Source of the DNA: Pseudobdellovibrionaceae bacterium
GTDB lineage: Bacteria; Bdellovibrionota; FAC87; UBA2466
DNA: 39,487 nucleotides
Assembly (NCBI GenBank): GCA_023250715.1
Contig: JAHFAF010000012.1
Span: 1 to 39,487, forward strand
Direction: 5' to 3'
This document shows, in pieces, positions 1 through 22,598 of the stretch (position 1 is the stretch's first letter; every line of letters starts with the position of its first letter). The translations under genes were made by a program, and so were the position numbers. A model generated the notes under the pieces. The model saw nothing but the letters and a program-made list of their open reading frames with translations, was not told where the DNA came from and did not search any database.

Positions 1-687
1 TACTTTGGGTGAAATGTTGCCGGGTTTTAGAGGGCGAATGATCTCCTCCACCCACTTCTGGCCTAACTCCGATTTCCCCCCCTCCATTTTTCTCATCACC
101 TCAGGAGGAGCGTTGGGAAGGATCCGAGTCCCCTCCTGTTTCTGCACGGGGCTTAAGCCCTCGGTGAGGCTCACCCAAAACTCGCCTACGGATCTTTTTT
201 GTTTTGCGGCGAGCGCTGAAAATGCTTTAGGGTCCGTTAATACCGTGTTCAAGAAAATCTGAGCAGCTTCTCGGCTCTCCTTGTGAATGGAAGGATCCTT
301 CGAAAAAAAATCGTAGAAAATAGTACGCTCAGCCAGAGTAGGGAAAACAAAATCTTTCAAATAGCTTTCCTTATCGTTTCCAAAAACCCCTTTGATTTTC
401 GCAAGCGAATCAGGAGCCGCAGTGTTCTTATCAATCCTCTGATCCTCCTTTTGTACAAGCTCTGGTGTAATCTCATGTCCATGATTCTTGAGAATCTGCG
501 CGTAGGTATAGGCGCGCACGAGCTGATCCAATCCCAAGTTTCGATTATCGTCGGGAAAGTAGATTTTAATGACAGCACTTCGGTAGGCAGCGTCCTTCTC
601 GCTAAGCGTGTAATCGCCGACTTTAGCAACGGGCGAATTTCGCGTGCAGGAAAAAAGAAATAGAAGAAGGGGCAAAAAACGGAGCAT
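1..687 (-). CDS. SurA/PpiC-like (parvulin-type) peptidyl-prolyl isomerase lipoprotein, C-terminus truncated by the window edge
   Basis: Manual translation from ATG at 687 is open to base 1: MLRFLPLLLFLFSCTRNSPVAKVGDYTLSEKDAAYRSAVIKIYFPDDNRNLGLDQLVRAYTYAQILKNHGHEITPE...SELGQKWVEEIIRPLKPGNISPKV. Lipobox LFSC, SurA-N-like 'VAKVGDYTLSEKDAA', parvulin-like 'LKPGNISP'. Not in the ORF track, probably because no stop falls within the window. Confidence 0.72.
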   Translation of the reverse strand, partial: MLRFLPLLLFLFSCTRNSPVAKVGDYTLSEKDAAYRSAVIKIYFPDDNRNLGLDQLVRAYTYAQILKNHGHEITPELVQKEDQRIDKNTAAPDSLAKIKGVFGNDKESYLKDFVFPTLAERTIFYDFFSKDPSIHKESREAAQIFLNTVLTDPKAFSALAAKQKRSVGEFWVSLTEGLSPVQKQEGTRILPNAPPEVMRKMEGGKSELGQKWVEEIIRPLKPGNISPKV

Positions 688-702
688 TCAAAGAAGTATA
701 CT

Positions 703-2990
703 TTAAGGGGTGTAAGAGTAACCAGTGTTTAGATTTCCATTACAGTTACCGCCCCAGAGAATAACCTGCCGGCCCGTAAAGACCCCACTATGACCCCGGC
801 GGTACGCAGTGGCGAAAGCTCCGTCGTACCAGGTGCCATTCGCACCGACGTTCGGATCGAAGAGCTTTGTTTGGCCTTGGTAAAGACTTCCGTCCGTCGC
901 TCCATAAATAAACAACTTCGATCCGGTCCAGACACTGGGAATGGTATTGACCGAATCGTAGAGGAGAACTCTTCCTACGGGCACGTTCGTATTGCTCATG
1001 GCGACCCACGAGCCCTGGCCGCTATAACCGCCGGAATAAGGATCGTACATCGCACCATCCGTTAACTTGTAACCACCGCCCCAGATGAGCATGCGACGGC
1101 CTGTCCAGACCGCAACGTGATTGGTTCTCGCGCTGGGAGCTCCTGTAGTGGTGGTCGTCACCCAGGTATCGGTGTCCGGGCTATACTTTCCACCCGTATT
1201 GCTTCCATTGGAAAATCCGCCACCCCAGATAATCATGTCTCTACCGGTCCACACCACGCTGGCTCCTCCATAGCGGCTCGTCGGAACGTTCGTCGTACTC
1301 ATGGTTGTCCAGGTTCCCACCCCACCCACGCTAAAACCGTTGTAAGGATCAAGACGCGCACCCGATACCTTCGCCTGTGTACTGGAATTGCTGACGGGGT
1401 CAAATTCATAATTTCCAGATCCGCCCCAAACGATAAATTCTCTGCCGGTCCAGACGCTTAAATGTCCAAAACGAGCTGAGGGGGCGCCCGTATTTTCAAT
1501 TGCTATCCAGGTGGAGGCGCCTGTGCCGACGGGATCAAACATCGCACCATCTCCAAGATAGCCGGCAGTGGAGGATCCTCCCCAAATGATCATGTGGCGC
1601 CCTGTCCACGCGTAGGAAAATCCATTTCGGGCGGTGGGGGCATTGATATCCGAAATATCCACAGCCGACCAAGAGTCTGTGGCCGGATCGTAAATGCCTC
1701 CCGTACCCAAATAAGTGCTGACATCCGTGTTGCCACCCCAAATGATCATCTTACTTCCTGTCCACACGGCTGCGTGCCCGTATCTTGCTTCAGGAGCGCC
1801 AGTGCCGTTTGTCGACGATATTTGTACCCAAGTATTGGAAAGATTCGTAATCGGAGGCGTGTAACGTGCGCCCGTACCGACAGCTCCGCCATTCCACCCG
1901 CCCCACATCAGAAATTCTTTTCCAGTCCACGCACTGGCGTAAGCAGCGCGCCCCACGACTTCGGCGGCGGGATTTACCATGGTAGTCCAAGCCGTCGTGG
2001 AGGTGCCGGCGGCATTATCCAACGACGGATCGTAAAGACCGCCAGTATTGGTCGCAGCTCCACCCGTGCCGTTATAGCCACCCCAGATAACTAATTGTTT
2101 ACCGGTCCATTGCGCTTGCACGCCGGCCCTGACCGTGGGAGCTCCCGAGACTGTCATCGGACTCCAGATATCATTGACAGGATCATAACGGCGCCCGTCG
2201 TTAAAGTACGTGGCACCAGGGCATCCTCCGCCTGTGTATCCGCTGATTCCGCCCCAAACCAAGACCTCACGGCCGGTCCACACCATCGAATGCCCCTGGC
2301 GTTTCGTGGGCGCGCCGGCCATGGTAGTTGAACGCCAAGTTCCATTCGGGCCGTCATAGGGATCGAATCTTCCGCCCACGTCCGTTCCGGCGAAGCAGGA
2401 TCCTCCGTCGCCACCCCAGACCACCAATTCCTTTCCTGTCCAAACTCCGATATTGCCGGCCCAGTATCCGATAGAGTACCCGGTGGGAGCATTGGTCGTG
2501 CTCATCGCCGTCCAGGCGTTCACACTATTTCCATTCGCATCCTTAGAGGGATCGTACATCCCGCCGGGTGCAGCGCTGCCAGAAGACCCGCCCCACACAA
2601 GCATGTGCTTTCCCGTCCACACCGCTACATGCATCATCTTGGGAGAGGGCGCACCAGTCGTCGTCGTTTTTATCCAAGTCTGGCTCACTGGATCGAATCG
2701 ACCGCCATTATTCACAGCCGGATAGGAACTGCCTTCATGCGCTTGCCCGCCCCACACGATCATCTCCCTGCCCGTCCAAACTGCAGTGTGATCCTGTCTC
2801 GGGGTAGGAGTATTCGCAGTGACCGGAGTGGAAGTCCAGCTATCAGTTATCGGATCGTACATCGCACCAACCTGAACACTCATCGTTCCGCCCCAGACGA
2901 TCATCTGGCTTCCGGTCCAAACCACAGAGCTTTGAATTTTAGACACTCCAGAAAGCGGCGAGGAAGACATCGTCACCCAGGCCTGGCCGT
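703..2990 (-). repeat. C-terminal Kelch-like repeat region, 14 WTG..hhhWGG blades
   Basis: Fourteen occurrences of the W/F-TG-x(4,5)-W/Y-G motif counted in the translation (e.g. VWTGSQMIVWGG, VWTGREMIVWGG, VFTGRQVILWGG), averaging about 54 aa per unit. Confidence 0.9.
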
Positions 2991-5900
2991 CATAAATGAA
3001 TTTCGGCGCGCTCGCGTGATTGGAGCTGACCTGATTATCCCCGTTTTTCACGATGACATCCGCTGGCCCGATGGCACCACTGGGAACCGTACAAATAATT
3101 TGCGTGCTGGTCGGAGTCCCCACTATCGGGCAGACAGTGCCGTTCACTGCCGGGCTGTCGCTTCCGCCGATAAGAACGGTGGGCGAGGAAAATTCAGCGC
3201 CCGTAAGTGTAATGGACGTTCCCGATTGTCCAAAGGCCGGTGTGAGGCTCGTAAGGGTCGGAGGGGGTGCGTAGGTAAAGGTGCCAATCGTCCTCAAATT
3301 CTGACTATTCGTCAAAACCAAACTGGCAGCACCCTTGACACCGGGGGGAGTGGTACACTGGACCTGATTGTAACTACTGCCAGTGATCTCGCAAATCTGT
3401 CCTCCGATCGTTACCGAGACTGCAGGAAAATTTGTTCCGGAAATCGTCAGAGGAGTTCCGCCCAACGTAGTCCCAGAGGGAGGACTGATGCTAGTAATCC
3501 CGGGCCGTTCGTGGAAATATCCCACGTAAGTCCTGGTGACGCTTTGTCCATCCCAGTTAGTCACAGTGACGCTCGCGTAATCGGCCGGAGGGTGCGGTGC
3601 GAGATTACATTGAATTTGAGTGGATGTCGCGGAGGTGACCGTGCAAGCAGAGGTGGTAATTGAACCATTCATGTTCTGGTAGGATACCGTCGGCAAGGCT
3701 GGGCTTGTCAGGAAATAATTGCCATTAATCGTTACCACCATGGGCGCTACACCATCGATCGTCCCGTCTGTCGAAAGCGCCCAAGGATCCACGGAACCCA
3801 CCGAAGGTGCATATTGATACTTGAACGTAGCGGAAAGTACCTTCGTTTGCCCATCCGAATTCTGCACTCTAGCGCCCACTAGCTCCTCGTACCAGAGACT
3901 ACTGGTGGTGCAAACGATCTGCGTATCATTGGAGAGGGCACCATTCACCGCACAAGGCTTATCTCCACTGGAGGTCACTAATGCCACTGTCGCTCCAGTG
4001 GAAAACTTAGACCCACTCAAGGTAATTTCCGTTCCGCCTTCAACCGCTCCCCCAGCCGGCGTGACACCTGAAATCACAGGAGCAAACCGGTAGGTAAAAG
4101 TAAGCGCCCCTGAAGTAGTCTGACCATCCGGATTCACCAAGGTGACAGCGACGGCTCCTTCCGTGTGCGCCGGCATGGATACGGTAAGTTTTCCGGAGTT
4201 GACGAAGGTAACAAAAGACGCTGCCAGCGCAGATCCATTCAACTTCACAGTGGGCTTAGTGATGAAATTCGATCCCAATACATCGATGCTGAACCCACCC
4301 GCTGGATCACCGGAAGTGACGCTGAGCGAACTCAATGCGGGGGCCAAATTGTAATCGTACGTTGTTGTTGCCGTTTTATTATCCGTGTTCTTCACTGTGA
4401 CGGTGACCGTGCCGCTTGCATGTGCGGGAATCTTAGCCGTGATTTGAGTGGACGTGATGGAAAGGTCGGAGGGCGCGACAAAGGCACCGCCGAAATCCAC
4501 CGTTAGCTTCGGCAAAAATCCCGTACCGTCAATCGTCATGCTAGCCCCCCCAGCGACAGGACCCGCGGTAGGCGTGCGTGAGATAATCGTCGGTGCTGGA
4601 GAGTTCACATAACTGTACTGGACATTATTCGAACTGGATTGAGTATCCCAGTTGGTGACGACTACTGGTGCACCGCCAACTGCGTGAGCACCCGTTTCGC
4701 AGGTAATCGATGTTCCGGAGCTCGACGTTACCGGACAATTCACCCCTCCGATCGAAACCGCTGGGCTAGGAAGGAAATCCGCTCCGCTAATCACTACACT
4801 CGTTCCACCCCCCGATGTGCCGGAGGTGGGGTTAGTTCCCGAGACCGTGGGAGCACGCTGATAGGTATAGCCATTCGACAATTGACCGGAGAGATCCAGT
4901 CCGAACGTCACTTTCACATGGGTGGCACCCGGGATAACTAATCCCGAAGGCGGCGGTGGCGTATCGGCGGTGATGGAATTTGCGCTCACCACTTGAACGT
5001 TTGTCGCCACGGCTTGCGCTCCCGTTCCCGGATTTACGAAGGTGACAGTCACGCCGGGGAAAAATCCTGATCCCGAAATCGTTACATGCGTGCCCCCCGC
5101 AATCGCCCCTCCACTAAGCGCAATTCCATCGACCGTGAAATTGCTTTTGTACGTGAAAAGTACGGCCCCATTCGTTGCCGTTTGCGGGCCAGGGTTTTTA
5201 ATTGCGACGGATGCGGGATTAACTCCCCCGGAAAAAGCCGGTGTCAAGCAGGTCATGCTCAAGGGCGGATTGGGAATGGGATTCGTGCAAGGCAATCCAT
5301 TGATTTCTGCGGTAGACGTATCCAGGATATTCGTTCCTGTAATTGTCACTAAACTGCCTCCCGCGCTATTTCCAATAGTCGGTGAAATGCTCGTGAGAGT
5401 CGGCGGAGGTGCGTAGAAATAAGAGGGTGACGTCGAATCCGATTGCCCTTCTTCGTTGATCACAACCACGTCCATTACGCCCGTGCCATTGGTCGGGCTC
5501 GCAGGAGTCCTGGCTGTAATCGTATTTTCATTCACAACGACAACACTCGTCGCCAAGGCTTCACTGTTTCCTAACTTAAACTTCACTTGAGCATTCGGAT
5601 AAAAACGCAGTCCCGTAATCGTTACAACGGCATTGCCGGCAACCGGGCCCGAGCCGGGATTTATTCCGGTGGCATCCGGAGCCATCCGATAAATAAATGC
5701 ACCGGTGCGTATGGTATTTTGATCGTCAAGATTGGTGATTTTCACGTCGGCAGGGAAAGGAGTCGTCCCGCTCAGTGCGTGGTTCGCTGCCGCGCAAGTG
5801 AGAATCGTGGCCGAGAAAGTGACAATCGGACAATCGACGTCCGCCACTTTTACCGAAACACCTGACAAGAAATTCGTACCAGTGATCGTCAGTATAGTCG

Positions 5901-8900
5901 GTACTACCGGGGCCGGGTTGCCCGCAACCGGCAATACAGTGGCGATCGAAGGAGCGGAGCTAATTTCGTATGTATACCCACCGCTCAACGTATCTGACTG
6001 GTTGTCGGAGTTTTGTATGAAAACGCCTTTCGCTCCGATGGCTGTATTTCGCGGAGTCACTGCAGTAATCGTGGTGTCATTGACTCGCACAACGCCAGTA
6101 ACCGCTTTTCCGTCAATCTGGACCGTGGGACTCGCCAAGAAGCCCGTGCCGGTAATCGTGATACTCGTACCACCGCCGGTGGAACCATGATTCGGGCTTA
6201 CCGATGTAACATGCGGCGGATTTCGATAGGTAAACTGCCCGGAGAGGCTCGCCGTCTGCCCATCTCCATTCGTCAAGACAATCGGGGGACTTGTGAGATC
6301 CGGCCCGGCCGGCGTTTTTCCCGTAACGGTCGTACCGTTTACCCTCACCACGGTTGTCGCACCGGCACCGCCGAATGCCACGGAAACCGTGCCGAAGAAA
6401 CCGGTGCCCGTCAGCGTGAAATCAGTCCCGCCCGCAGGCGGACCCGCTTGAATATTAATACCCGTGAGGGTAGGCGCCGCATTCAGATAGGTAAAGGCAC
6501 TGAGTTTAGTTCGAGCCTGTCCGAAAGCATCCGTCACGACGACATTCACAAGGCCTGCAGCATGGGCTCCGGTGAGACAGGTAATTTTCGTACTCGGCAC
6601 CACTACGTTCACCGGCCCGCAGGCCACACCAACCGTGTCGGTAGTGCTTTTCAAAATCACGGTATCCGACGATCGCAAACCGGAGCCATTGATGGTGAGG
6701 GCATCTCCTCCCCCGACGAGTCCAATTGCCGGAACAACCGTGTCCACCACCGGCGCATCCTTATAGACAAAGGGCAATGGATACTCGACGATTTGACCGT
6801 CTCCATTAGTGAGCTGAATTGTCGCGTTCCCTGCTGTGGTTGCCGCCGGAGTATGGAAACTCACATGGGTAGAATCGACGACGACGGGGTCCGTGGAGCT
6901 GATTCCACCCACCTTCACACTAGCCCCGGAGAGAAAACCTGTCCCCGTGAGCGTGACGAGAGTGCCTCCCGCCATCGGGCCTTCCAACACATCGGCGCCA
7001 CTCAAGGTGGGTGGCGGATTCGTGTAGGTGAAAGCATTTTGCTTCACGCGCGATTGGCCGTAGGAGTCGGTGACAACAACATTCACCTGGCCCGCGCCAT
7101 GCACGCTCGTCACGCAGGAAATTGTTGTATTCGTAGCAACCAAATTTACCGGCCCGCAGCTCGATCCACTTCCCAATTCCGCAGCGCCGATTAATTTCAC
7201 CGTATCGGAAGAGCGTAAACCAGTACCCACGATCGTAAGAACTGTTCCACCGAGCACGGTACCGGTGGCTGGCGCTACGGAATCCACCACCGGCGCGTCT
7301 TTATAAACAAAATTCTGAGGGTAGGTGACATTTTGTCCGTCTGAGTTCGTCAATTCAATGCTAGAGGAAGCCGCTGCCGTGGCAGGAGGAGTGTGGAACC
7401 TCACATGGGTGGAATCGACGACAACGGGGTCCGATGAGCTCACGCCGCCCACTTTCACGCTGGATCCGAGGAAGCCCGTTCCCGTAAGTGTTACCAGAGT
7501 GCCCCCGGCAAGAGGCCCTTCCAAAACGTCCGCGCCACTCAGGGTGGGGGCCGGGTTCACATATTGAAACGCGCTCAGCTTTACGCGCACCTGACCGTAG
7601 GAATCAGTCACCACTACGTTTACGACGCCGGCGGCATGACTACTCGTCACGCAGGAGATTGTTGTATTGGTAACAACCAAATTTACCGGGCCGCAGTTCG
7701 ATCCGCTTCCAATTTCCGCAGCACCGATTAATTTCACCGTATCGGTGGAGCGCAGTCCGGAGCCTACGATTGTAAGTACGCTGCCGCCACCTGAAAGACC
7801 CGTTGCAGGGGTAACCGAGTCAATAATCGGCGCATCCTTATAGATGAAGGGCTGCGGGTAAGTAACCACTTGAGCATCTGCATTGGTCAATTCAATGGTG
7901 GCGGAAACCGCTTGCGCAACACCCGGAGTGTGGAATCTCACATGGGTGGAATCCACAACAGTCGTGTCAGGAGCTGCGATCGCCCCAACTTTTACGGATG
8001 CACCCGTCACAAAATTTGCACCAGTCAGGGTGACTAAACTTCCGCCCGCAAGAGGCCCTTCCAAAATATCCGCCCCACTCAGAGTAGGGGGTGGGCTCGT
8101 GTAGCGAAAAGCTTGAGGTTTTGTCCTGGACTGATTGAAAGAATCGGTGACGACAAGATCAACCGCGGTCGCACTCGCTGTTCCCGTCGGGGCGACACAG
8201 GAAATCTTGGTATTCGTCTCTAAGACGGCAACCGAGGTACAGGGTCTACCGTCCACCTTCACGGTACTTAACTCATTCAAACCTACACCGGTGATGGTGA
8301 GAAGCGTATTCACATTTGCAAGGCCAGTCGCCGGAGTTACCGTGTCGAGGGTCGGTGCATCTTTATAAGTGAACGCTGAAGTGAGGGAGCGCTTTTGGCC
8401 GTCGCCGTTCGTCAACTCCACATCCACCCCACCCGCCACTTCCTGCGACGGAGTAATAATTGTGACTTTTGTTGAGTCGACGAAAGTTACATTCGAGACC
8501 GACTTATTGCCGAATTTGACGGAGACCGGGCTTCGAAATCCACCGCCATTTAAGTCAACAGAAGTTCCGCCAACAAGTGCTCCTTCGGAGACACTCAAAC
8601 TGGTAAGACTGGGCGGCGGGAAAACATAGGTGAATAACCCTGTTTTACTGGAGCTTTGCCCGTCCGGATTAACGACGGTAATCGTGTAAGAGCCTTCGTC
8701 CGTCTGGGAGGGTGAGGTACAACGCAGCTGCGATGCCGAATCGAATAAAACCGGCGTACAGGATTTGGAGCCCAGCTGAACCGTCGCCCCGTCCTTAAAA
8801 TCATTTCCCGTAATCGTGAGGGACTGCCCACCGCTCGTCGAACCAGAAGAAGGAGAAACTGATCCGACGTTCGGAGGGAGAATGAATGTGAATGCATTAG

Positions 8901-11421
8901 AAAGCGCGTGCTGTTGACCGTCGGAGTTAATCACGGCGACTTCCACGGCTCCGGCAATGTGGGACTTTGTTGCAAAAGTGAGGCTGGTATCGCTAGCGAG
9001 AACTACATTGCTAGCATCTTCTCCATCCAACGTAATGCGTACACCCGAAGTGAATCCCGTGCCGACGGCAGTTACGGCCGTTCCGCCATTAGAGGTTCCA
9101 TGATCTGGGGAAATGCTCGTCAAATGCGGGGCCGGAAAGAGGATATAAGTGTACGGTGAAGTGCCTGACTGCCCATCCGTATTCAACACGCGAACGTCTA
9201 CGCTTCCCGCCGCCTCATGCCGCGGAACTTGGCAAACCAATTGGGTAGAACTTACTCGGGTGGTGTCCGTACAGGGCAATCCCCCGACGAATATCTGAAT
9301 TCCCGATAGAAAGTTTGTTCCCGAAACGGTGATATTATTTCCACCGCCCGTAGAGCCAGAGGCCGGGACTACTGCGGAAATGGACGGGGCTGGAACGGTG
9401 ACAAATCGATAAGATCCCAACAAGGAGCCGACGTTCCCGTCCGTGTTCGTTACGGCAACATCTACGGTGCCCGTTGCGTGCTCCGGTGTCTTGCAAGAAA
9501 TTTGCGTATCACTATCGACCACCACGTTGGAAGCACTGTCATTTCCGAATTTGACCGTCGCCCCAAAAACAAACCCGGTTCCCGTAATCGTGACGATCGT
9601 TCCGCCTCCGATAGTTCCAGAAACCGGCGAAAGGGACGTAACGGAAGGAGCAGGAAGACTAACGTAATTGAATCCATCGGCTTTCGCGCCCGATCGAAGA
9701 TCCGTATTTGTTACTTTGACCTCCGCGATCCCAGCCGCGTGAGGCGAAGTAAGACAGCTCATCTGGGAAGAGGAAATCAAAATAGAGTGAGAACAGGGTT
9801 GCCCGCCAACCTGAATGTTCGCTCCATTCAAGAATCCGGATCCGTTCACGGTAATCGGAGTGCTGCCACCTGTCGTGCCTTGCGCAGGGATCACTTGGGT
9901 GACTGTCGGCGGATCGGAGTCGGAGTAGGTGAAGGCATTACTCAGCTCGGAAAATTGCCCGTCGGTATTGGTAACCCTCGCCGCAACAGCTCCCGCGGCA
10001 TGGTTCCGCGTAAGGCAGGTCAGCTTAATGGAAGATTCGACGACAACATCGTCGCAGATACTATTATCGAGTTTCGCAATAGCACCCGGAAGGAAGTTAA
10101 GACCATTAATAACGATCTGCGTTCTACCACCTGTCGTGCCTTGAGCAGGAACGACGGATAAGACAGCCGGCGCAGGAGGAGTGCCGTAGGTGAACCCACC
10201 GCTTAGAGTTCCGGATTGGAAATCACTGTTTGTGAAAACAACGGAAACCGGCCCTTCGGCGTGCGCTGGAGTAACACAACTTGCTTCCGTCGAAGAACGG
10301 ACGACTGCGGAGCCGCAGGGAGTGCCATCTAGAAAAATTGTTGCCGAGGGATAAAAATTCGATCCCCGCAGGGTAATACTGGTTCCGCCGCCCTTGGTTC
10401 CCGTATTCGGAACCACCTGACTGACCTGAGGAGGCGAAACGACGACATAGGTGAAGCCCGCACCCAATGTAGCTTTCTGTCCGTCGTCACTATTTGTGAC
10501 CTCGACGGCCACAGCACCAGCGGCATGCGTGGAAGAGTTGCAAAGAATTGTCGTGCTAGTGAGACTCGTAATCACGCAAGGGGATCCGCCAAAGGAAACG
10601 GAGGCTCCCGGCTTGAAGTTTTTACCGACGAGAGTCATCGGAGTTCCGCCGCCGGCAAGACCCGATGTTGGACTAACGCTGGAAAGAGTCGGCCCGGCTT
10701 GGTATCGATAACCTCCCACTAACAATGAAGTTTGATTATCGTCGCTAATGTATTCGACATCCACCGTAAGAGCTTCGCTCACGGCCGGAGTGGTACATCG
10801 TACTCGGGTTCCCGAATCCACGCTCACGGAAAGACAATCTTGGTTTCCGATTCGTACGGCACCCCCAGAAGAAAATCCTGATCCCGTAAGAGTGACTTCC
10901 GTTCCGCCCGAGATCCGGCCGGCTACGGGGCTCACGGAGGCCAACAGGGGAGAGGCACGCCCCGTAACGCTGACCTGAACCGACTGACTAGATAGCCCGT
11001 CGTTAAAGCCCAGAATCATTTGCGAAGAAAAAGACCCGCCGATTTCGGGGGAAAACTCGACGATAACGGTGCAGTGTTCATTTCCTTTCAAAGTCGATTC
11101 GCACGTACCGCCCTGGCCCGGAAAGGACCCGCCTACGAAATACCAGGGCGAGGCGACGCTGCCCTCGAGGTGCGTGGCCACCTTGTCCCCGTCGTTAGTG
11201 ATGACAAAAACTATGTTGGAAGATTGACCGACGTGAAGCGTGCCGAAGGGGAAAGAATGGGAATCCGTGGATTGAATCGAATTGCTACTGATTTTCAGAA
11301 GAGCAAGTTGAGTCTCGATTCCGGGACTGAACACACCGGCGTTCTTGAATCGCTGGCAGGAAGAAAAAGCCAGGACACAAATCAGCCCAAGCGCAAAAAT
11401 GTTACGAGTCGATGGCACCAC
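703..11421 (-). CDS. Giant exported, probable lipoprotein: Hydin/ASPM-like N-terminal domain, about 30 tandem IPT/TIG domains, 14 C-terminal Kelch-like repeats
   Basis: 3572-aa ORF. N-terminal signal with lipobox-like FSSC. Repeated 'P.v.SvsP..G...GGt.vtitGtgF......v..g...C.......t.i.C.tp.h..G.v.V.vtN.dgq......aFtY' units. C-terminal 14x 'R.gH.aVWTGrem.vWGG....yDP..d.W'. GTG start. Confidence 0.95.
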   Translation of the reverse strand: MVPSTRNIFALGLICVLAFSSCQRFKNAGVFSPGIETQLALLKISSNSIQSTDSHSFPFGTLHVGQSSNIVFVITNDGDKVATHLEGSVASPWYFVGGSFPGQGGTCESTLKGNEHCTVIVEFSPEIGGSFSSQMILGFNDGLSSQSVQVSVTGRASPLLASVSPVAGRISGGTEVTLTGSGFSSGGAVRIGNQDCLSVSVDSGTRVRCTTPAVSEALTVDVEYISDDNQTSLLVGGYRYQAGPTLSSVSPTSGLAGGGTPMTLVGKNFKPGASVSFGGSPCVITSLTSTTILCNSSTHAAGAVAVEVTNSDDGQKATLGAGFTYVVVSPPQVSQVVPNTGTKGGGTSITLRGSNFYPSATIFLDGTPCGSAVVRSSTEASCVTPAHAEGPVSVVFTNSDFQSGTLSGGFTYGTPPAPAVLSVVPAQGTTGGRTQIVINGLNFLPGAIAKLDNSICDDVVVESSIKLTCLTRNHAAGAVAARVTNTDGQFSELSNAFTYSDSDPPTVTQVIPAQGTTGGSTPITVNGSGFLNGANIQVGGQPCSHSILISSSQMSCLTSPHAAGIAEVKVTNTDLRSGAKADGFNYVSLPAPSVTSLSPVSGTIGGGTIVTITGTGFVFGATVKFGNDSASNVVVDSDTQISCKTPEHATGTVDVAVTNTDGNVGSLLGSYRFVTVPAPSISAVVPASGSTGGGNNITVSGTNFLSGIQIFVGGLPCTDTTRVSSTQLVCQVPRHEAAGSVDVRVLNTDGQSGTSPYTYILFPAPHLTSISPDHGTSNGGTAVTAVGTGFTSGVRITLDGEDASNVVLASDTSLTFATKSHIAGAVEVAVINSDGQQHALSNAFTFILPPNVGSVSPSSGSTSGGQSLTITGNDFKDGATVQLGSKSCTPVLFDSASQLRCTSPSQTDEGSYTITVVNPDGQSSSKTGLFTYVFPPPSLTSLSVSEGALVGGTSVDLNGGGFRSPVSVKFGNKSVSNVTFVDSTKVTIITPSQEVAGGVDVELTNGDGQKRSLTSAFTYKDAPTLDTVTPATGLANVNTLLTITGVGLNELSTVKVDGRPCTSVAVLETNTKISCVAPTGTASATAVDLVVTDSFNQSRTKPQAFRYTSPPPTLSGADILEGPLAGGSLVTLTGANFVTGASVKVGAIAAPDTTVVDSTHVRFHTPGVAQAVSATIELTNADAQVVTYPQPFIYKDAPIIDSVTPATGLSGGGSVLTIVGSGLRSTDTVKLIGAAEIGSGSNCGPVNLVVTNTTISCVTSSHAAGVVNVVVTDSYGQVRVKLSAFQYVNPAPTLSGADVLEGPLAGGTLVTLTGTGFLGSSVKVGGVSSSDPVVVDSTHVRFHTPPATAAASSSIELTNSDGQNVTYPQNFVYKDAPVVDSVAPATGTVLGGTVLTIVGTGLRSSDTVKLIGAAELGSGSSCGPVNLVATNTTISCVTSVHGAGQVNVVVTDSYGQSRVKQNAFTYTNPPPTLSGADVLEGPMAGGTLVTLTGTGFLSGASVKVGGISSTDPVVVDSTHVSFHTPAATTAGNATIQLTNGDGQIVEYPLPFVYKDAPVVDTVVPAIGLVGGGDALTINGSGLRSSDTVILKSTTDTVGVACGPVNVVVPSTKITCLTGAHAAGLVNVVVTDAFGQARTKLSAFTYLNAAPTLTGINIQAGPPAGGTDFTLTGTGFFGTVSVAFGGAGATTVVRVNGTTVTGKTPAGPDLTSPPIVLTNGDGQTASLSGQFTYRNPPHVTSVSPNHGSTGGGTSITITGTGFLASPTVQIDGKAVTGVVRVNDTTITAVTPRNTAIGAKGVFIQNSDNQSDTLSGGYTYEISSAPSIATVLPVAGNPAPVVPTILTITGTNFLSGVSVKVADVDCPIVTFSATILTCAAANHALSGTTPFPADVKITNLDDQNTIRTGAFIYRMAPDATGINPGSGPVAGNAVVTITGLRFYPNAQVKFKLGNSEALATSVVVVNENTITARTPASPTNGTGVMDVVVINEEGQSDSTSPSYFYAPPPTLTSISPTIGNSAGGSLVTITGTNILDTSTAEINGLPCTNPIPNPPLSMTCLTPAFSGGVNPASVAIKNPGPQTATNGAVLFTYKSNFTVDGIALSGGAIAGGTHVTISGSGFFPGVTVTFVNPGTGAQAVATNVQVVSANSITADTPPPPSGLVIPGATHVKVTFGLDLSGQLSNGYTYQRAPTVSGTNPTSGTSGGGTSVVISGADFLPSPAVSIGGVNCPVTSSSGTSITCETGAHAVGGAPVVVTNWDTQSSSNNVQYSYVNSPAPTIISRTPTAGPVAGGASMTIDGTGFLPKLTVDFGGAFVAPSDLSITSTQITAKIPAHASGTVTVTVKNTDNKTATTTYDYNLAPALSSLSVTSGDPAGGFSIDVLGSNFITKPTVKLNGSALAASFVTFVNSGKLTVSMPAHTEGAVAVTLVNPDGQTTSGALTFTYRFAPVISGVTPAGGAVEGGTEITLSGSKFSTGATVALVTSSGDKPCAVNGALSNDTQIVCTTSSLWYEELVGARVQNSDGQTKVLSATFKYQYAPSVGSVDPWALSTDGTIDGVAPMVVTINGNYFLTSPALPTVSYQNMNGSITTSACTVTSATSTQIQCNLAPHPPADYASVTVTNWDGQSVTRTYVGYFHERPGITSISPPSGTTLGGTPLTISGTNFPAVSVTIGGQICEITGSSYNQVQCTTPPGVKGAASLVLTNSQNLRTIGTFTYAPPPTLTSLTPAFGQSGTSITLTGAEFSSPTVLIGGSDSPAVNGTVCPIVGTPTSTQIICTVPSGAIGPADVIVKNGDNQVSSNHASAPKFIYDGQAWVTMSSSPLSGVSKIQSSVVWTGSQMIVWGGTMSVQVGAMYDPITDSWTSTPVTANTPTPRQDHTAVWTGREMIVWGGQAHEGSSYPAVNNGGRFDPVSQTWIKTTTTGAPSPKMMHVAVWTGKHMLVWGGSSGSAAPGGMYDPSKDANGNSVNAWTAMSTTNAPTGYSIGYWAGNIGVWTGKELVVWGGDGGSCFAGTDVGGRFDPYDGPNGTWRSTTMAGAPTKRQGHSMVWTGREVLVWGGISGYTGGGCPGATYFNDGRRYDPVNDIWSPMTVSGAPTVRAGVQAQWTGKQLVIWGGYNGTGGAATNTGGLYDPSLDNAAGTSTTAWTTMVNPAAEVVGRAAYASAWTGKEFLMWGGWNGGAVGTGARYTPPITNLSNTWVQISSTNGTGAPEARYGHAAVWTGSKMIIWGGNTDVSTYLGTGGIYDPATDSWSAVDISDINAPTARNGFSYAWTGRHMIIWGGSSTAGYLGDGAMFDPVGTGASTWIAIENTGAPSARFGHLSVWTGREFIVWGGSGNYEFDPVSNSSTQAKVSGARLDPYNGFSVGGVGTWTTMSTTNVPTSRYGGASVVWTGRDMIIWGGGFSNGSNTGGKYSPDTDTWVTTTTTGAPSARTNHVAVWTGRRMLIWGGGYKLTDGAMYDPYSGGYSGQGSWVAMSNTNVPVGRVLLYDSVNTIPSVWTGSKLFIYGATDGSLYQGQTKLFDPNVGANGTWYDGAFATAYRRGHSGVFTGRQVILWGGNCNGNLNTGYSYTP
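2990..10960 (-). repeat. Tandem IPT/TIG repeat region, about 30 units of about 88 aa
   Basis: Thirty successive 'P..(S/T)..P..G...GG' starts ending in '(F/Y)xY' counted in the translation. Confidence 0.88.
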
Positions 11422-14138: not shown

Positions 14139-14531
14139 ATGCCCGACGACAAAAAAGATGACAATTATTGGAAGGGTAAACTTTCCCCGGAAGAATTCCA
14201 GATCACACGAAAAAAGGGGACTGAGCGAGCCTTCACGGGGGAGTACAACGCTTGTAAAGATCCCGGAACCTACCTCTGCAAGTGTTGCGGTGAGCCTCTA
14301 TTTTCCTCCGATGCCAAATTCGATTCTGGGACCGGATGGCCGAGCTTCTTCAAGCCGTTGGAGAAACAGGTCGAGTCCGAAGATGATTCCAGTTTTTTCA
14401 TGAAACGCACCGAAGTGCATTGCCGCAAATGCGGCGCACACCTGGGCCACGTTTTCGACGATGGACCGGAGCCCACCGGAAAACGCTACTGTATCAATTC
14501 CCTTTCTTTGAAGCTCGAGAAGAAGACGTAG
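14139..14531 (+). CDS. msrB: Peptide methionine (R)-S-oxide reductase MsrB (cytosolic)
   Basis: Zn-binding CKCCGEP and [21 protein letters not shown], catalytic RYCINSLSL. Starts just after the helicase stop. Confidence 0.95.
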
Positions 14532-15251: not shown

Positions 15252-16763
15252 TTACTTAAATCCCTCGAGAAAAAGTAAGAGCCCAGTCTCCTGAAACAAC
15301 TTTTCTTGGCGCTCGGAGTTTAAGCTTTTCAAGAATGGCCAATATTCCTTCAAGACCGCTTTCCTTTCCTTAGTTACTCTTTTCGGATCTCCCATTTCGA
15401 GTCGTGCGTCGCCAAGAGCATCCAACCTCTTCCTCATTTCCTCCAAAATCGGGACATCTTTTTCGTAGCTCATTTCGATCAAAGCGTCGGAGACGTTCCT
15501 CAGATTTCTGCGCGAGAGCCGAAACCTCTTTGGAAGTACTTTACCGAATGGCCGCACCCGTTGGAAAGATCCATTAGACTCCGGATCAAGACATTGAATT
15601 TCATCAAGTTTAGACGCGTAAGCGTTACAGATTTTTTCCGCCCACGCAAATAGGGGGCCGCCGCCTGAATAACTAGCGTAAGCGACCTTCTCGAGCCATT
15701 TACCGTCCTTGTCTTTAAAAATATAACAGTCCCAGTTATAGAGCTGCGTTGGAAAGCATACAGCGCTGCTTGTGGCTGCGGGTGTTCCGCTAGCTTCAAT
15801 CCATGCAAAAGGGTAATCCCACGCATCCTTCTTGGGGATGTATTGGTAGTCTTTATCATAAAGAGTTATCGTCCGCGCTCCGGCCGCGGTATCATCTACG
15901 ACGCGCTTTTCCACCGGTTTAGCCGCGTAAGCAGCCAAAAAATAGGATTGGAACCCTTTGAGCATGAATTCTCTTTTGATACGACAGTAGATTCCTTTTT
16001 TTCGTACCGACTGAACGTATGGTTTTTCTCGGCTCACTTTCACATACCTTTCGGTCACTGGAATGCTCGCCATAAAGCAATACCCCCCAAGCGCCTCGAA
16101 ATAAGTGGGCTCACCCAGAATATCTAAAGACCCGAAAAGAAGACCCTCTTCAATTTTCGAGTAATCACTCCCAATGATGGGTAACTTCCCCCACCAACCC
16201 AGGTCTTTTTCTTTCAAAGGAGATTGGTCGTCACCAAAGGGCGCTGGGAACCATTGGATTTCATATTCTCCCACACGATTTGTTTCCCGGAATTCAGATA
16301 TAGTGTTCCCCGTGGCTTTCAGATAATGCTTGTTATCGAAACGCCCTTGCAAAAGACTTTCTGGCAAAAGGGAGGGGGGATTTTCAGCATATTTAAGAGC
16401 ACGACAAAGGAACTTGTCTCCCAAAAGTCCGCAAACTTGATTATTTCCCAATGACAGAGAGTTCGCCTTGGCGAGTTCAGGATAGTACGAGACTCTTTTA
16501 TCCTTCCATGACCAGCAATAGAGCATGTTGTCATCTTGAGCACATTGCCCTTTTTCGGAGGAAACGATCTGAGAGATAGGTCCGATGTCGTAAAGAAAGT
16601 CTAAGGACTCCGTTTCTCCCGTTGGCCCAAGACAAAAAAGCTCCTTATCCTGGACTGCACAAAGATGCGTGAGTCCACCCGTGACGGAGGCGACGTGACC
16701 TGGCGCCGGTAAGCACATTAGAAAAAAGGCCAGGTACATCACTTTTTCATTCCAACTATTCAT
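15252..16763 (-). CDS. Secreted Cys-rich divergent RCC1-like protein with helical C-terminal region
   Basis: The ORF track extends to 16811, but ATG at 16763 (MNSWNEKVMYLAFFLMCLPAPGHVASV) has a strong SD (GGGAGG) and a signal peptide. RCC1-like units: GGLTHLCAVQDKELFCLG, SSEKGQCAQDDNMLYCWSW, LGNNQVCGLLGDKFLCRA. Confidence 0.7.
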   Translation of the reverse strand: MNSWNEKVMYLAFFLMCLPAPGHVASVTGGLTHLCAVQDKELFCLGPTGETESLDFLYDIGPISQIVSSEKGQCAQDDNMLYCWSWKDKRVSYYPELAKANSLSLGNNQVCGLLGDKFLCRALKYAENPPSLLPESLLQGRFDNKHYLKATGNTISEFRETNRVGEYEIQWFPAPFGDDQSPLKEKDLGWWGKLPIIGSDYSKIEEGLLFGSLDILGEPTYFEALGGYCFMASIPVTERYVKVSREKPYVQSVRKKGIYCRIKREFMLKGFQSYFLAAYAAKPVEKRVVDDTAAGARTITLYDKDYQYIPKKDAWDYPFAWIEASGTPAATSSAVCFPTQLYNWDCYIFKDKDGKWLEKVAYASYSGGGPLFAWAEKICNAYASKLDEIQCLDPESNGSFQRVRPFGKVLPKRFRLSRRNLRNVSDALIEMSYEKDVPILEEMRKRLDALGDARLEMGDPKRVTKERKAVLKEYWPFLKSLNSERQEKLFQETGLLLFLEGFK

Positions 16764-16776
16764 TTTCGTTCCTCCC

Positions 16777-18318
16777 TTAACTCGATTCCAATGATAAATA
16801 AAATCCCACAATCAACCCCATCAGGCCCGGCGTTTTAGTCTTCGGATAAGCTGCCATCCGCTCGAAATATGTCTTATGACGCTTTAGCATGTTACCAACA
16901 GCGCTAATCTCCATCGGATGAGGATCGGCTGCGAACTCACCAAGCGCAGCAACGATAGTATCAAGGGTGGCCTTATCATCTTTGCGCGGTAGAAATTTCC
17001 TATGGGAGTTCAATGCGGTGATCAATAACAGCACAGACATCTCCGCCCTCTTTTCATCCGGTGAAAAATCTTGGAGTGATTTAATTCCATTAGCCAAATT
17101 CATAATGGTAAGTTGGCGCAAAAAATTCGTGGGAATATCGTTTCGAAAGTTTGGGATTTCTACATTTTCTAAAACTGGCCTAAGTAAATTAGCAAAAAAA
17201 AGTTCAGTCCCTGGCTGGCCCGCGAGAACCTCTTTCGCCTTGGCCAACACGGCTGCGTCTCGGTCATATAGCAATTCATCAATCCTTCCCAAGGTGTCTG
17301 CCAGAAAAAGGTCTGAGAAATCAAAATAGCTCATCAGTGTGATCGATCCCCTCACGCTAAACGGCTGGTTTGTCTCTCCAGCTTTCGTACATCGAATAGT
17401 TCCAGTATTTGTCACCAAACAGATCTCCTGTCCCACCATAACAGGCTTCGAGATGTCCGTTGGGGGTAGCGCAATAGTGGTGAGTGCGTTTTGACAAAGA
17501 GTTTCATTGGGATAACGACGAAAGCATTTTGAATCCGGGGCCCTTGCTGTCACCCCACATTGGATCGTCCGTTCATCCAAAGAACGAATACAAAAAGCTC
17601 CGTGAGTGTCCGAAAAGATCGGAGAAATATCCGCTGAGAGATTTCCTCTAAAAAAGGTGGAGAATTTCGGATGTTGAGGAAGGCCCTCCAGCCCCTCCTC
17701 CAGCCCAGTGAGATCGGAGCAGGAAAAATGGCCTGTAAAGACGGGCTTCTGTGGTTGAACGCAGAGCGAATTTCCAACAATTAAGGGTTTTACGTCTGGT
17801 GCCAGACCACTGACCGCGTAAGACGCCTTTTCTTTGCCGTTGATTCTCCCCGTACAAAGCAAGCGAGTTGCGGCTGCATCTTCAAAACGGCAGGTAAATG
17901 ACGCTCCCACCAAAGAATCGCTGGTTGCTAACCCCGTTATTGGTGCAAAAGTGTGTTCGACGCAGGAGACTCTCCCTGATTTTTTTCCGCAAGCGTGGTT
18001 TTCTGTGACGTGGATATTACTAATCTCTGTAAACTCCGGGTGGGAATCTAATATCTCGGGGGCTCCCCATTTCCAACAATGCAACGCAAGCGAATCGCGA
18101 ACACATTGAACCGAATCAGTTGAGAAGGTGGCTAGGGGAAGAGTGAACTGTGGAAGCCTTTCCTTCGCTAACGGAACTCCCTTTTCCCAGCATTTGAACC
18201 CATCGGCATCGATCGCACATACTCGATTGGTACCCCCCGTAAAGTGAAGCCACTTAGCGACGGCGCCATAAGCTCCGCTCGGCTGCAATATTAGAAACAC
18301 GGAAAAGAGCAACTTCAC
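16777..18318 (-). CDS. Secreted Cys-rich divergent RCC1-like protein, paralog of the downstream gene
   Basis: 513-aa ORF with signal peptide (MKLLFSVFLILQPSGAYG). RCC1-like units GGTNRVCAIDADGFKCWEKG, STDSVQCVRDSLALHCWKWG, VTENHACGKKSGRVSCVEH. ATGA overlap with the upstream gene. Confidence 0.72.
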   Translation of the reverse strand: MKLLFSVFLILQPSGAYGAVAKWLHFTGGTNRVCAIDADGFKCWEKGVPLAKERLPQFTLPLATFSTDSVQCVRDSLALHCWKWGAPEILDSHPEFTEISNIHVTENHACGKKSGRVSCVEHTFAPITGLATSDSLVGASFTCRFEDAAATRLLCTGRINGKEKASYAVSGLAPDVKPLIVGNSLCVQPQKPVFTGHFSCSDLTGLEEGLEGLPQHPKFSTFFRGNLSADISPIFSDTHGAFCIRSLDERTIQCGVTARAPDSKCFRRYPNETLCQNALTTIALPPTDISKPVMVGQEICLVTNTGTIRCTKAGETNQPFSVRGSITLMSYFDFSDLFLADTLGRIDELLYDRDAAVLAKAKEVLAGQPGTELFFANLLRPVLENVEIPNFRNDIPTNFLRQLTIMNLANGIKSLQDFSPDEKRAEMSVLLLITALNSHRKFLPRKDDKATLDTIVAALGEFAADPHPMEISAVGNMLKRHKTYFERMAAYPKTKTPGLMGLIVGFYLSLESS

Positions 18319-19805
18319 GGATATTCCACCTTCAGCTCGTCAATTCTGTTTTCCACCTGACGCAGTGTCTTTTTGAGCGCGATCGTTTTTTCTGAATCTA
18401 TATTAAGAAGAATCGCCCAGTCGTCCTTATAGGAACTACGTAAACGGGCGACATCCGAGGAATAGATCACTCGCCATTCGAGTTTCATTAATCTTGCAAG
18501 AAATCCCAGTTCCCGAAACAGCGACTTGGTGGATTCCTTCTTAATGAAGGGGGCCAGGGATAAGAGGCTAGCTTCCATAGTAGTCGCGTAAGCCTGAAAG
18601 TCGGCCGCGCTTTTCGAGTCCGGTTCATCGCCCATTGCGATCTCGACGCTAATCAGTTTAGGATCCTTGCGTTTTACGAAATAATCTTCGACGGAGTGAA
18701 TGGGCTCAGTACTCAACTTTCCCTTTCCCACCCTCTTGAAGAAGAAGGGAATCTTTATTGGGGTAAAACGGGTCCGGTTCTTCACGCCAGCGAACCATTC
18801 TTTGAGAGGGGAATGGTACAGTTTTGTTTTTCCCTCTGAATAATCATTGCGATCGATGGTCAATAAACAGTCCGTTTTCAAATCTAGAACCCCGCCTCCG
18901 ACACCGTCACCACCACCAACCCCATCGCCTCCGCCCACTCCATCTCCCCCGCCAATCTTGAAAGTCGCTTCTGTCCTTTTGCAATTTGAAACCTGGAATT
19001 GCAGACCTTGCGTATGGAAGATAGTTTCTCTTCTCGCCTGCTCCTCAGGATTCCACATGAAGTAAGGGCGATACTCTGAAGGCAGGAAGAAATATTCCGC
19101 AAGCCATTCTGAGACCACATGGCTAGGCAATAGAATAGGTTGGTTTTCGACCACCTTTGATTCCGGTGAAAAGAAGGCCACCTCCGATTCATCGATGGAA
19201 ACCAACTTTCTTAACTGACGCGTTAAGAACCCGTACACCAGGTCGCCTCCCGGTGAAAACACAGGCCCCCCGCTCATACCGAACTCCGCGAACCCCATTC
19301 CCAATAGAACTACCTTACTCAGAAGGGGAAAGCCGTGGAGAGACGTTTGTGGAATCAGAACATAACCCCTTTTGTTATGGATGAGTTCTGTTTCGGTAAA
19401 GGAGGCAAATCCCGTAATCACGACCTTCTCATTTTCTTCGAAGAGATGATCCTTCGCGAGCACTTCGAGAGTGGGAAGATCCGTCGACGGGTATCCCGGG
19501 GGGTCTACTTCGTATAGCGCGAGATCATTTCCCGCTTCCGCCGCCAAAAATCGCAGTTTCTTTCGCTCTAGGTTAATATCTGAAAATTCTGCGCAATAAT
19601 CGGTGTTCTCACGAAGTAAGACGGCGTGGCCTGCCCCCAATACGTATTCTTTGTTATCCCGTTGAAAGCGAAACCCACTTCCTTTCCACTTGAGATCGGA
19701 GGTCTCGCAAAGGCCTGAATGGGTCTTTACGATCGCAAGATCCGAAATAGGTACGGCAATCACCGGAAAGGCAACTATCAACGCGAATAAGGCGATATGT
19801 CTCAT
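18315..19805 (-). CDS. Secreted trypsin-like serine protease with GGGDGV-repeat insertion and helical C-terminus
   Basis: Start at 19805 (MRHIALFALIVAFPVIAVP) with SD GGAGG. Triad candidates: His in VLGAGHAVL, Asp in GNDLALYEV, Ser in FGMSGGPVFSPGGDLVYG. ATGA overlap with the upstream gene. Confidence 0.82.
   Translation of the reverse strand: MRHIALFALIVAFPVIAVPISDLAIVKTHSGLCETSDLKWKGSGFRFQRDNKEYVLGAGHAVLLRENTDYCAEFSDINLERKKLRFLAAEAGNDLALYEVDPPGYPSTDLPTLEVLAKDHLFEENEKVVITGFASFTETELIHNKRGYVLIPQTSLHGFPLLSKVVLLGMGFAEFGMSGGPVFSPGGDLVYGFLTRQLRKLVSIDESEVAFFSPESKVVENQPILLPSHVVSEWLAEYFFLPSEYRPYFMWNPEEQARRETIFHTQGLQFQVSNCKRTEATFKIGGGDGVGGGDGVGGGDGVGGGVLDLKTDCLLTIDRNDYSEGKTKLYHSPLKEWFAGVKNRTRFTPIKIPFFFKRVGKGKLSTEPIHSVEDYFVKRKDPKLISVEIAMGDEPDSKSAADFQAYATTMEASLLSLAPFIKKESTKSLFRELGFLARLMKLEWRVIYSSDVARLRSSYKDDWAILLNIDSEKTIALKKTLRQVENRIDELKVEYP
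18892..18953 (-). repeat. Tandem hexapeptide-coding repeat (GGGDGV)x3-GGG
   Basis: Translation ...KIGGGDGVGGGDGVGGGDGVGGGVLDL. 18-bp units encoded with different synonymous codons. Confidence 0.9.
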
Positions 19806-21712
19806 AATGAGGCCTCCAAGACTTTTGAATGATATCTGGTATGTCTTCCCTTTCCCTCGCGATCGACCAACCCCTTTTCGATCCAACTGGAAAGAATACG
19901 ATTCATGCTGCTTCGTGGTTTCTTGAATTTAAGTTCCAATTCATTACGACTTTGAAAGCCCTGCCAAACGGGCCGTGGAACCACCCCGGCCACCAAGCGC
20001 TCTGCAGATGAGCTAGAAACTAATTTTTTAGAATTTGGAAAGTATCCCGACATCTGCGCCTCATGCGGCCTTCGTTTAAAATCGCAGATACACCAATCAC
20101 CCTCTCCGATAACGAAACCCGCCTTCACACGAAACGTGAAAGTTTCCGGCATTATTTTCTTGAGGCGCGAAAGCAAATTAGAGACCTTGCCACCATGGTC
20201 CAAAAAATCGAACCGAGAAATGTCGAAGACATGCCTTGAAAATTCCTCCAAACTTACAGTGCCCCTTTTCTTTAGGAGGTCCAACGCAAGGACCGCGGAT
20301 TTGGAAATATGATTTCTTCCCTGCCTATCAGTAATTTGATGAAGCGTAAGATCAATGAGGATAATCCTAGCAGGAAAATTCGATGGGACTTTATCTATCA
20401 AAGAACGCAAGGACTCTACGAGAGAAGCAAGACACGTGGGCGCCACTTTGTTGGAGGAAAGAGCAGACTCTATCAATGAACGAAAGAGTAGCTCATCGGA
20501 ACTCCATAAGGGGCTACTCTTGAGATTAAAAAGATACTCGTCAGATTTTGCTATATCTCCGTCTCGCAATGCGACAAACAATTGGATAAAGAGATATTCG
20601 TACTGGAGCAAGGAGTAGCCGGGATTTTCCTTTGATTGGAATAGGGACAAGACTTCTTCGATCTTTGCCTCGCTTTTCGAATCGAAGAGACCAACCCAGC
20701 TGAGAGCATTTCGAATGAGATAATAGTCTTCCCAGGTGGTACGGTGGGACCAATCTAAGTCCAAGTTTTCCACTAGAACCGCGACTTTGAGAAACGGAAA
20801 CTGATTCGGAGCGCAAAGCCATTTCCAAACCCACGAGTAGAGGCGATCCACATGCTCAGATGGCTTGATAATCCTCAGATCATCGGGATGAAAAATACCC
20901 GCTAATGTTCGAAAACGGTAAGCACAGTAATCGATGGTACAACAAGCCCCCGCCAACTCACCCAGAAACTCCCCGCCTGTATCGGCACGATAGCCGGCGT
21001 GGTAAGGAAGCGACTGAAGCCATTCAACGTAATAGGTGGGCTGCTCGACGCCTGAGCCAGCCCCCTCCAAACCTATCTCGATCGCCTTTCTGATCTCGCC
21101 CTTACGAAAAAACAGCCTTTGCTTCAACGCCTTGAGCTGAGATAGGACTTTTGAAACTGTCTTCTTATCCTTTATACCCGATAGAAGGGTCTCGATCTCC
21201 TCTAGTTTGTCATTATAAGGAATCCCCAGGTTCTCTTTGCACAAAACAATGTTGGTCTTCGCGCAGAGTTTCTGAAAAATTGTGGGAGCTTGTCTCTCCC
21301 ATTGAACCAAACTCTCAAATGCCGAGTAGTACTCACCACGACCAAAATCCAACATTGCCTTTTCGTATGAGTAGTAACAATGACTCATCAAGTCTATTTG
21401 TCTTGAGTTTCTTTCGACCTTTTCGAGCATTTCTTTCGAGTAATGATGGGCTTTGTTCGACCTCGCTAAAGAGGAGCTGAGCAGAAGAAGATCAACAATA
21501 CTTTCTCGGTTTGGGGATTTTAGCAACAATTGCACTTCCGCCTCAGAGAGGCTTCCAAGCGGGATTTGTAGTTCCTGTTTGAGCTTCGACAAGAGAGGGA
21601 GACAAGTATCGAAGTCATGATTGATCTTTAGCTCCCATGCTCGATCAATTTCCGCCGCAAGCTTAAGGGACGATTTTTCCCGTGTGGGTGCCACTTCAAT
21701 TCTCGAACTCAA
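19802..21712 (-). CDS. Helical (TPR-like) protein with C-terminal winged-helix/HTH-like segments; putative regulator
   Basis: 636 aa with no signal peptide. Long all-helical body. C-terminus 'SAVLALDLLKKRGTVSLEEFSRHVFDISRFDFLDHGGKVSNLLSRLKKIMP...' and 'SRNELELKFKKPRSSMNRILSSWIEKGLVDREGKGRHTRYH' both read as winged helix folds. Confidence 0.6.
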   Translation of the reverse strand: MSSRIEVAPTREKSSLKLAAEIDRAWELKINHDFDTCLPLLSKLKQELQIPLGSLSEAEVQLLLKSPNRESIVDLLLLSSSLARSNKAHHYSKEMLEKVERNSRQIDLMSHCYYSYEKAMLDFGRGEYYSAFESLVQWERQAPTIFQKLCAKTNIVLCKENLGIPYNDKLEEIETLLSGIKDKKTVSKVLSQLKALKQRLFFRKGEIRKAIEIGLEGAGSGVEQPTYYVEWLQSLPYHAGYRADTGGEFLGELAGACCTIDYCAYRFRTLAGIFHPDDLRIIKPSEHVDRLYSWVWKWLCAPNQFPFLKVAVLVENLDLDWSHRTTWEDYYLIRNALSWVGLFDSKSEAKIEEVLSLFQSKENPGYSLLQYEYLFIQLFVALRDGDIAKSDEYLFNLKSSPLWSSDELLFRSLIESALSSNKVAPTCLASLVESLRSLIDKVPSNFPARIILIDLTLHQITDRQGRNHISKSAVLALDLLKKRGTVSLEEFSRHVFDISRFDFLDHGGKVSNLLSRLKKIMPETFTFRVKAGFVIGEGDWCICDFKRRPHEAQMSGYFPNSKKLVSSSSAERLVAGVVPRPVWQGFQSRNELELKFKKPRSSMNRILSSWIEKGLVDREGKGRHTRYHSKVLEASL

Positions 21713-22472
21713 CGATTTTCTTGTTACCGAACTTGTCTAGGTAGATATCGTTCAGGCCCTCGATCTCCAGAACAATGATGTAGGGAACAGTAGCTGTGGA
21801 GGGGACTTTACGAAACTCCTCATAGAGCTCATTCCGGATCGCAACACTTACTGTAAGGGCTTCATCAAAGGTCTTGGGAACATCTCCTTCATTGGCCTCG
21901 GCGGCTGCGATCACGTCCGCCACTCTATTTTTTACTGATTCAATTTTATTCTGAAAACCTCGGGCGACATCGTGCCGTTCTAGGTCCATTAAAAGACTGA
22001 GAATATTGGTAAATGTCGATAGAGTGTGTTGAGTAATGTAGATTTTTTTCAGGCCTTGGTTTTGGGCAATTTTTTCGGTGAATCGGAGTAATTTATCTAG
22101 AAGAAAACCCGTTTTCCTTGAGGAGATTTCCGAAAAATAGGCTTTGTGAGCCCGGTAATTGTAAATGAGATTTTGAAATTCTTGGAAAGTCTCCGCATGA
22201 CCAATTCCTTTTTCCTTGTCCTCAATTAGATCGAAGACTCGTTTCGAGCTTCCTCTTAGTACGAGAAGCTTTGGCTGATCGGCTCGTTTTACAAAGCCAC
22301 GGACATAGTCAATGACCCTAATCTGCCGGGAAACACAATCCCGAGAATCCATGCACTGAAACTCGGAACTCCCTTCCTCTGGGGTTGGAGGGAGATCCAA
22401 TTTCAGCTCATCCCCAGAGGCCAAGCGAGAAAATAGAATCAGCCCCAACATCAAGAATGCTTGTGCTTTCAT
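21696..22472 (-). CDS. Exported helical protein of unknown function, first gene of the operon
   Basis: ORF extends to 22523, but MKAQAFLMLGLILFSRLASGDELKL at 22472 is a signal peptide and the likely start. A Cys pair follows (FQCMDSRDCVSR). 17-bp overlap with the next gene. Confidence 0.65.
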   Translation of the reverse strand: MKAQAFLMLGLILFSRLASGDELKLDLPPTPEEGSSEFQCMDSRDCVSRQIRVIDYVRGFVKRADQPKLLVLRGSSKRVFDLIEDKEKGIGHAETFQEFQNLIYNYRAHKAYFSEISSRKTGFLLDKLLRFTEKIAQNQGLKKIYITQHTLSTFTNILSLLMDLERHDVARGFQNKIESVKNRVADVIAAAEANEGDVPKTFDEALTVSVAIRNELYEEFRKVPSTATVPYIIVLEIEGLNDIYLDKFGNKKIVEFEN

Positions 22473-22492
22473 TACCAGATGCTTATGAAAAC

Positions 22493-22507
22493 TGACACTT
22501 TGTGTCA
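22493..22507. promoter_or_regulatory. Perfect palindromic operator candidate TGACAC-TTT-GTGTCA, overlapping a candidate -35 (TTGACA)
   Basis: Exact 6-3-6 inverted repeat 21 bp upstream of the likely start at 22472. On the minus strand TTGACA-N17-TAAGCA is a weak promoter match. Confidence 0.6.
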
Positions 22508-22598
22508 ATTCATTACTTCTCACTTCTTCTCACAACCGGTTCTTTTCTATCAAGAGCCCTGGAGGGGGAAAGGAAATGACCTCTCCCCCGAGTTACAA

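Follow-up and report, generated by a model that had tools for sequence, protein, structure and literature searches.

A 3572-residue predicted lipoprotein with an IPT/TIG stalk and a 14-blade Kelch tip in a Pseudobdellovibrionaceae bacterium

The window analyzed here (the whole stretch of 39,487 nucleotides of contig JAHFAF010000012.1 from a Pseudobdellovibrionaceae bacterium) carries on its minus strand a complete gene (703..11421, GTG start) for a protein of 3572 amino acids (∼360 kDa), in which a lipobox, an ASH/HYDIN-like Ig domain, 30 IPT/TIG domains and 14 Kelch blades follow one another from N to C terminus. We consider it reasonably probable (about 0.6) that this protein is a fibre for recognition or adhesion, anchored by lipid, that holds two propellers out at a distance from the cell. 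A first-pass annotation had described a 3572-residue protein with about 30 IPT/TIG domains and 14 blades; Pfam matches and motif spacing gave exactly 30 and 14, and chance is excluded as the source of these repeat counts. A reading-frame check found many stops on the plus strand of the same interval. The source assembly comprises 4.5 Mb in 542 contigs with 8.6% contamination; however, the closest homologue of the gene downstream of the giant lies in another genome of the same family (G012), suggesting that the contig itself is not contamination. No phage structural family was found on the protein or on the neighbors tested, which speaks against a phage origin; in a PHROG comparison the TIG part matched only one PHROG, of unknown function, and a search of a plasmid collection returned no match.

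The Kelch head occupies residues 2834-3572, where motif spacing identified 14 blades of the VWTGxxMIVWGG type (18-55% identical to each other) and two Pfam Kelch models matched (PF24681 at 6e-59, the second at 1e-32). Blades 1-7 (1837..2988, minus strand) carry the N-terminal closing strand AWVTMSSS, and blades 8-14 (703..1836, minus strand) the closing strand NTWVQISS, the protein ending at TGYSYTP-stop. When the halves were aligned by blade, each stayed in register with 21 complete seven-blade segments of other genomes; nearly all of these place the closing strand first and end just past the last blade, often at ...TGGxYxP. For each half, this supports the earlier proposal that the 14 blades make two seven-bladed propellers. 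Blade counts of Kelch relatives in samples of two phyla peaked at 7 (or 8 if an N-terminal closing half-blade is included), with a second cluster at 12-14, and the existence of relatives with seven blades and no more speaks against a single 14-bladed ring. Three-sequence alignments of the head ran one blade out of register, and a 23-row alignment was used for modeling. AlphaFold, proposed earlier as a check of the C-terminal 760 aa, modeled the second half alone with a pLDDT of 87.0 and a pTM of 0.88, whereas a model of the whole 14-blade head from only a two-row alignment (pLDDT 54, pTM 0.44) was too poor to use. Foldseek searches of the PDB with the second-half model recovered the Kelch propellers KLHDC2, LZTR1 and KLHL12 and plant specifier proteins (E down to 8.5e-15), at TM-scores normalized by query of 0.5-0.63, which are limited because most targets are six-bladed. 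The head thus has the sequence matches of a Kelch β-propeller, and model confidence and the predicted strands suggest that the second half closes into the ring of 6-8 four-stranded blades that defines this class; two seven-bladed rings are the likely arrangement for the head as a whole. The division of consecutive blades between two rings resembles that of a 15-blade WD40 protein modeled as 7+8 (PMC9218822), although that protein is eukaryotic, is built of WD40 rather than Kelch repeats and has near-identical blades. An origin of the second propeller by duplication of a whole propeller was unsupported: blade n and blade n+7 shared on average 39.7% identity compared with 33-46% at other lags, and identity within halves (38.6%) equaled that between halves (38.3%).

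The stalk consists of 30 consecutive IPT/TIG domains (residues ∼159-2814; 2980..10947, minus strand), delimited with PF01833, NF058597 and a repeat alignment. The protein belongs to the IPT/TIG proteins by its match to the Pfam TIG model (PF01833; 1014 bits, E=0, 30 separate stretches; curated domain cut-off of 20.9 bits), and the NCBIfam model CoaZ_rpt_PGGG (NF058597) also matched above its cut-off in 26 stretches; both families define the repeats only, and not the whole layout of the protein or its tip. Unit spacing was regular (81-97 aa, mean 88.5 aa over the 30 units), in agreement with the figure of about 88 aa given previously. In a PDB search the closest solved structures were the IPT domains of plexin-A1 and MET. 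With a length of ∼4 nm per Ig-fold bead, the contour of a rod made from this stalk would be at most roughly 120 nm, and since plexin IPT arrays curve, the rod may be bent. Within the stalk, TIG12-17 (6475..8082, minus strand) form three diverged copies of a two-TIG unit at a spacing of 537-540 bp, in which corresponding domains share 67-80% identity (57-62% in comparisons with TIG17); the copies are unlikely to be an assembly artefact because their DNA is only 67-76% identical. Over the whole stalk, identity was 40.8% at a lag of two domains versus 31% at a lag of one, and by these comparisons the stalk seems to have grown through pairwise duplication of TIG units. Cysteines occur as none or two in 29 of the 30 domains (37 cysteines in all), a number that 200,000 random redistributions of these cysteines never reached (best 27). 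This pattern fits one internal disulfide per domain, which would probably form in 18 of the 30, and hence an oxidizing, extracytoplasmic location.

At the other end of the protein, the N terminus MVPSTRNIFALGLICVLAFSSCQ reads as a signal peptide and a lipobox ending at C22 (AFSS-C22; 11356..11421, minus strand), with Q at +2. By eye, RNIFALGLICVLAFSS-C22 shows the arrangement characteristic of bacterial lipoproteins, a hydrophobic signal and then a lipobox with a terminal Cys, and MVPSTRNIFALGLICVLAFSS-C22 fits the PROSITE PS51257 lipobox rule. Together with Q at +2, the lipobox suggests that the giant is probably an outer-membrane lipoprotein. The domain that follows (residues 54-154; 10960..11262, minus strand) is a HYDIN/ASH-like Ig domain with its own cysteine pair (residues 107 and 117), assigned by a PF22544 match (E=1.2e-5) that at 25.9 bits barely exceeds the cut-off of 25.5. 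Neither the lipobox nor this domain, the TIG12-17 copies or the gene downstream had been recorded in the first-pass annotation.

That downstream gene (1..687, minus strand) starts 15 bp past the stop codon of the giant and is cut by the contig end; the 229 aa that are kept belong to a SurA/PrsA-like, exported, lipoprotein-like protein. The window copy itself had no significant family match, SurA_N_3 included, whereas SurA_N_3 matched 5 of 14 members of its family (best 1.7e-6); the only PDB match of the family was PrsA (E=0.057). Of 369 genomes, 13 contain the family, with 16 members in total. In G003, G284, G357 and G103, a homologue (phmmer E 8e-26 to 1.5e-5) comes directly after a Kelch protein; counting the window, this adjacency is seen in five genomes from four families, far above chance placement. 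The figure of 5 in 16 is biased because the seed set was found through adjacency to Kelch genes. The remaining 11 members are not beside Kelch genes (L196, for example, adjoins a Gly-rich secreted protein), which rules out a dedicated Kelch partner. In the proposed mechanism, the product is probably a periplasmic chaperone that helps the giant to fold or to cross the periplasm. Other features of the neighborhood include a run of six exported or unknown proteins (15252-23450, minus strand), two of which have RCC1-like Cys/Trp repeats by eye and one of which is a trypsin-like protease (PF13365) with a GVGGGD repeat, the others having no Pfam family. In a genome of the same order (G014; L071:3147-4280, plus strand), a Kelch protein is followed by an RCC1-like exported protein that by eye resembles the pair at 15252-18318 of the window. 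Two SelR (methionine sulfoxide reductase B) genes also lie within the 39 kb (14139-14531, plus strand; 30031-30477, minus strand).

Taken as a mechanism, the giant would leave the cytoplasm through Sec, receive its lipid on Cys22, be sorted to the outer membrane (Q at +2) and then be displayed outward, the ASH-like domain and the 30 TIG beads, 18 with a probable internal disulfide, forming a rod with two seven-bladed Kelch propellers in tandem at its free C terminus. The exposed propeller faces would bind a partner, which might be a substrate, a matrix, or a glycan or protein on the surface of another cell, and the length of the stalk would evolve through duplication of one or two TIG units. 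Indirect support for a surface location comes from the lipobox, from the paired cysteines and from a stalk whose length would not fit upright into the periplasm. Counting against outward display, lipoproteins can remain in the periplasm, and neither a flippase nor a SLAM-like exporter was identified. The giant might accordingly be placed inside the envelope, as a scaffold running along or within the periplasm whose propellers bind peptidoglycan or envelope proteins, for example in cell shape or envelope integrity. Lipobox and disulfides suit the periplasm equally well, and the SurA-like neighbor is periplasmic by family, but 30 TIG domains, if extended, would be several-fold wider than the periplasm, and the range of 2 to 44 TIG units per protein among relatives is easier to reconcile with outward reach than with a constant distance inside the periplasm; we regard such a scaffold as unlikely.

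Assuming that the protein is a surface fibre, it would probably act as an adhesin or in recognition, and the present data fit recognition of foreign partners and of the organism's own kind alike. Long Ig-like stalks of the type seen here are typical of biofilm adhesins, so the giant could hold cells of its own kind together in biofilms or aggregates and not serve to recognize foreign organisms or surfaces. No RTX (haemolysin-type) calcium-binding family was among its Pfam matches up to E=1, however, unlike in LapA or BapA, and the protein does not appear to belong to that class of giant adhesins (RTX calcium repeats with a type I secretion signal); a purely own-kind adhesin is in our estimate quite improbable. 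Enzymes are known among the Kelch propellers of bacteria and fungi, but a secreted or surface enzyme with catalytic heads (galactose-oxidase-like or sialate-epimerase-like) on a spacer stalk is a very doubtful reading of this protein, given that no enzyme family scored above cut-off in Pfam or NCBIfam and that, in structure, plant specifier proteins and Kelch domains that bind peptides or proteins matched best. Neither a ligand nor catalytic residues were identified in the protein.

The first-pass annotation had called the combination of a long IPT/TIG stalk with a Kelch-like head unusual, and a survey of relatives, which it had also proposed, sustained this for size only: the window protein is the largest TIG-plus-Kelch version found among the genomes sampled, while the pairing itself recurs. 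A genome of the same family (G003) encodes two lipoproteins of 927 aa (six TIG domains and seven blades; L062) and 561 aa (two TIG domains and seven blades; L061), both ordered like the window protein as lipobox, TIG stalk and Kelch tip. In a sample centered on a Planctomycetota genome, two TIG domains are joined to 14 contiguous blades (L247), and four TIG domains to ∼14 blades in broken clusters (L252). These four proteins, along with long TIG stalks across the phylum, mark the architecture as recurrent. Bacterial Kelch-propeller lipoproteins (for example, L062, L061, L053, L242 and L243) share with the window protein the blade signature, the seven-blade unit, the C-terminal ending and often a lipobox, but most have 7 blades and 0-6 TIG domains, compared with 14 and 30 here. 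In the sample of the window's phylum, CoaZ/TIG matches at 1e-8 occurred in 58 of 369 genomes, and stalks of 17-44 domains carry non-Kelch tips. Many are lipoproteins with 17-24 TIG domains, a ∼110-aa C-terminal cap that by eye looks ASH-like, and a conserved gene downstream (L139-L141, L144, L145, L147, L148, L150-L154 and the fragment L160). Three other lipoproteins (L142, L143 and L149) combine 17 TIG units with a conserved Gly-rich head of 500-590 aa containing GGGGGRIAIIS-type stretches; one such head was tested and had no Pfam match. Immediately downstream of the TIG giants of family f9 lies a conserved exported gene of ∼220-280 aa (for example, L144:3321-3986, minus strand; L148:9595-10284, plus strand; L160:2807-3649, plus strand) with the motifs FGNGxGxDxIS and ITGNVAPxR and no Pfam family, which looks like a dedicated partner of these giants. 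Another same-family contig (L138:2-17470, plus strand; G003:C12) has a 44-TIG open frame of 5823 aa or more; its C terminus runs through EF-hand-like sequence and a hydrophobic stretch to RRR, resembling an anchor or a sorting signal. Nor are large TIG arrays confined to the window's phylum: a Planctomycetota genome (G369, that of L051) has 53 TIG matches, in open frames of up to ∼5458 aa. No description of the TIG-stalk/Kelch-tip architecture was found in a literature search that reached few subscription papers, and the window protein is apparently an extreme variant of a recurrent, undescribed kind.

Among known systems, the ectodomains of plexins and MET likewise present a seven-bladed propeller on an IPT/TIG stalk. 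Their propeller, however, is N-terminal and made of Sema blades, their IPT units are few, and they are transmembrane and eukaryotic, whereas the window protein has C-terminal Kelch blades and a lipobox; Pfam found no Sema or PSI domain in the giant. With blades, order and anchor all differing, this is a likeness rather than membership, and the layout is convergent. In Bdellovibrio, the long fibres of the mosaic adhesive trimer (MAT) carry different tips (PMC10769870), and in their long stalk and exchangeable tips they resemble the TIG-stalk proteins. MAT fibres are trimeric β-helices that often end in S74 chaperones, but no S74 or β-helix family was among the Pfam matches of the giant, and S74 had no match in the whole genome of the window or in the same-family genome G003, which separates the giant from the MAT class. 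A complete genome of the same phylum encodes 12 Peptidase_S74 proteins, one of which matches the MAT fibre Bd1334 (8OML, E=5e-26), while two others had no PDB match; the window's phylum is thus probably that of Bdellovibrio.

We tentatively propose that the phylum may possess an undescribed modular fibre system of lipid-anchored stalks of 2-44 TIG domains with exchangeable C-terminal tips (Kelch heads of 7 or 14 blades, ASH-like caps, Gly-rich heads or EF-hand/TM tails), often with a conserved partner gene downstream, that could recognize cells or surfaces in lineages without S74 MAT fibres. If the giant is a surface fibre, one lineage would build receptors of ∼100 nm out of duplicated TIG units and interchangeable tips, as a bacterial parallel to plexin/MET and to the MAT fibres of Bdellovibrio, and the conserved partner genes would offer genetic handles in organisms known mostly from metagenomes.
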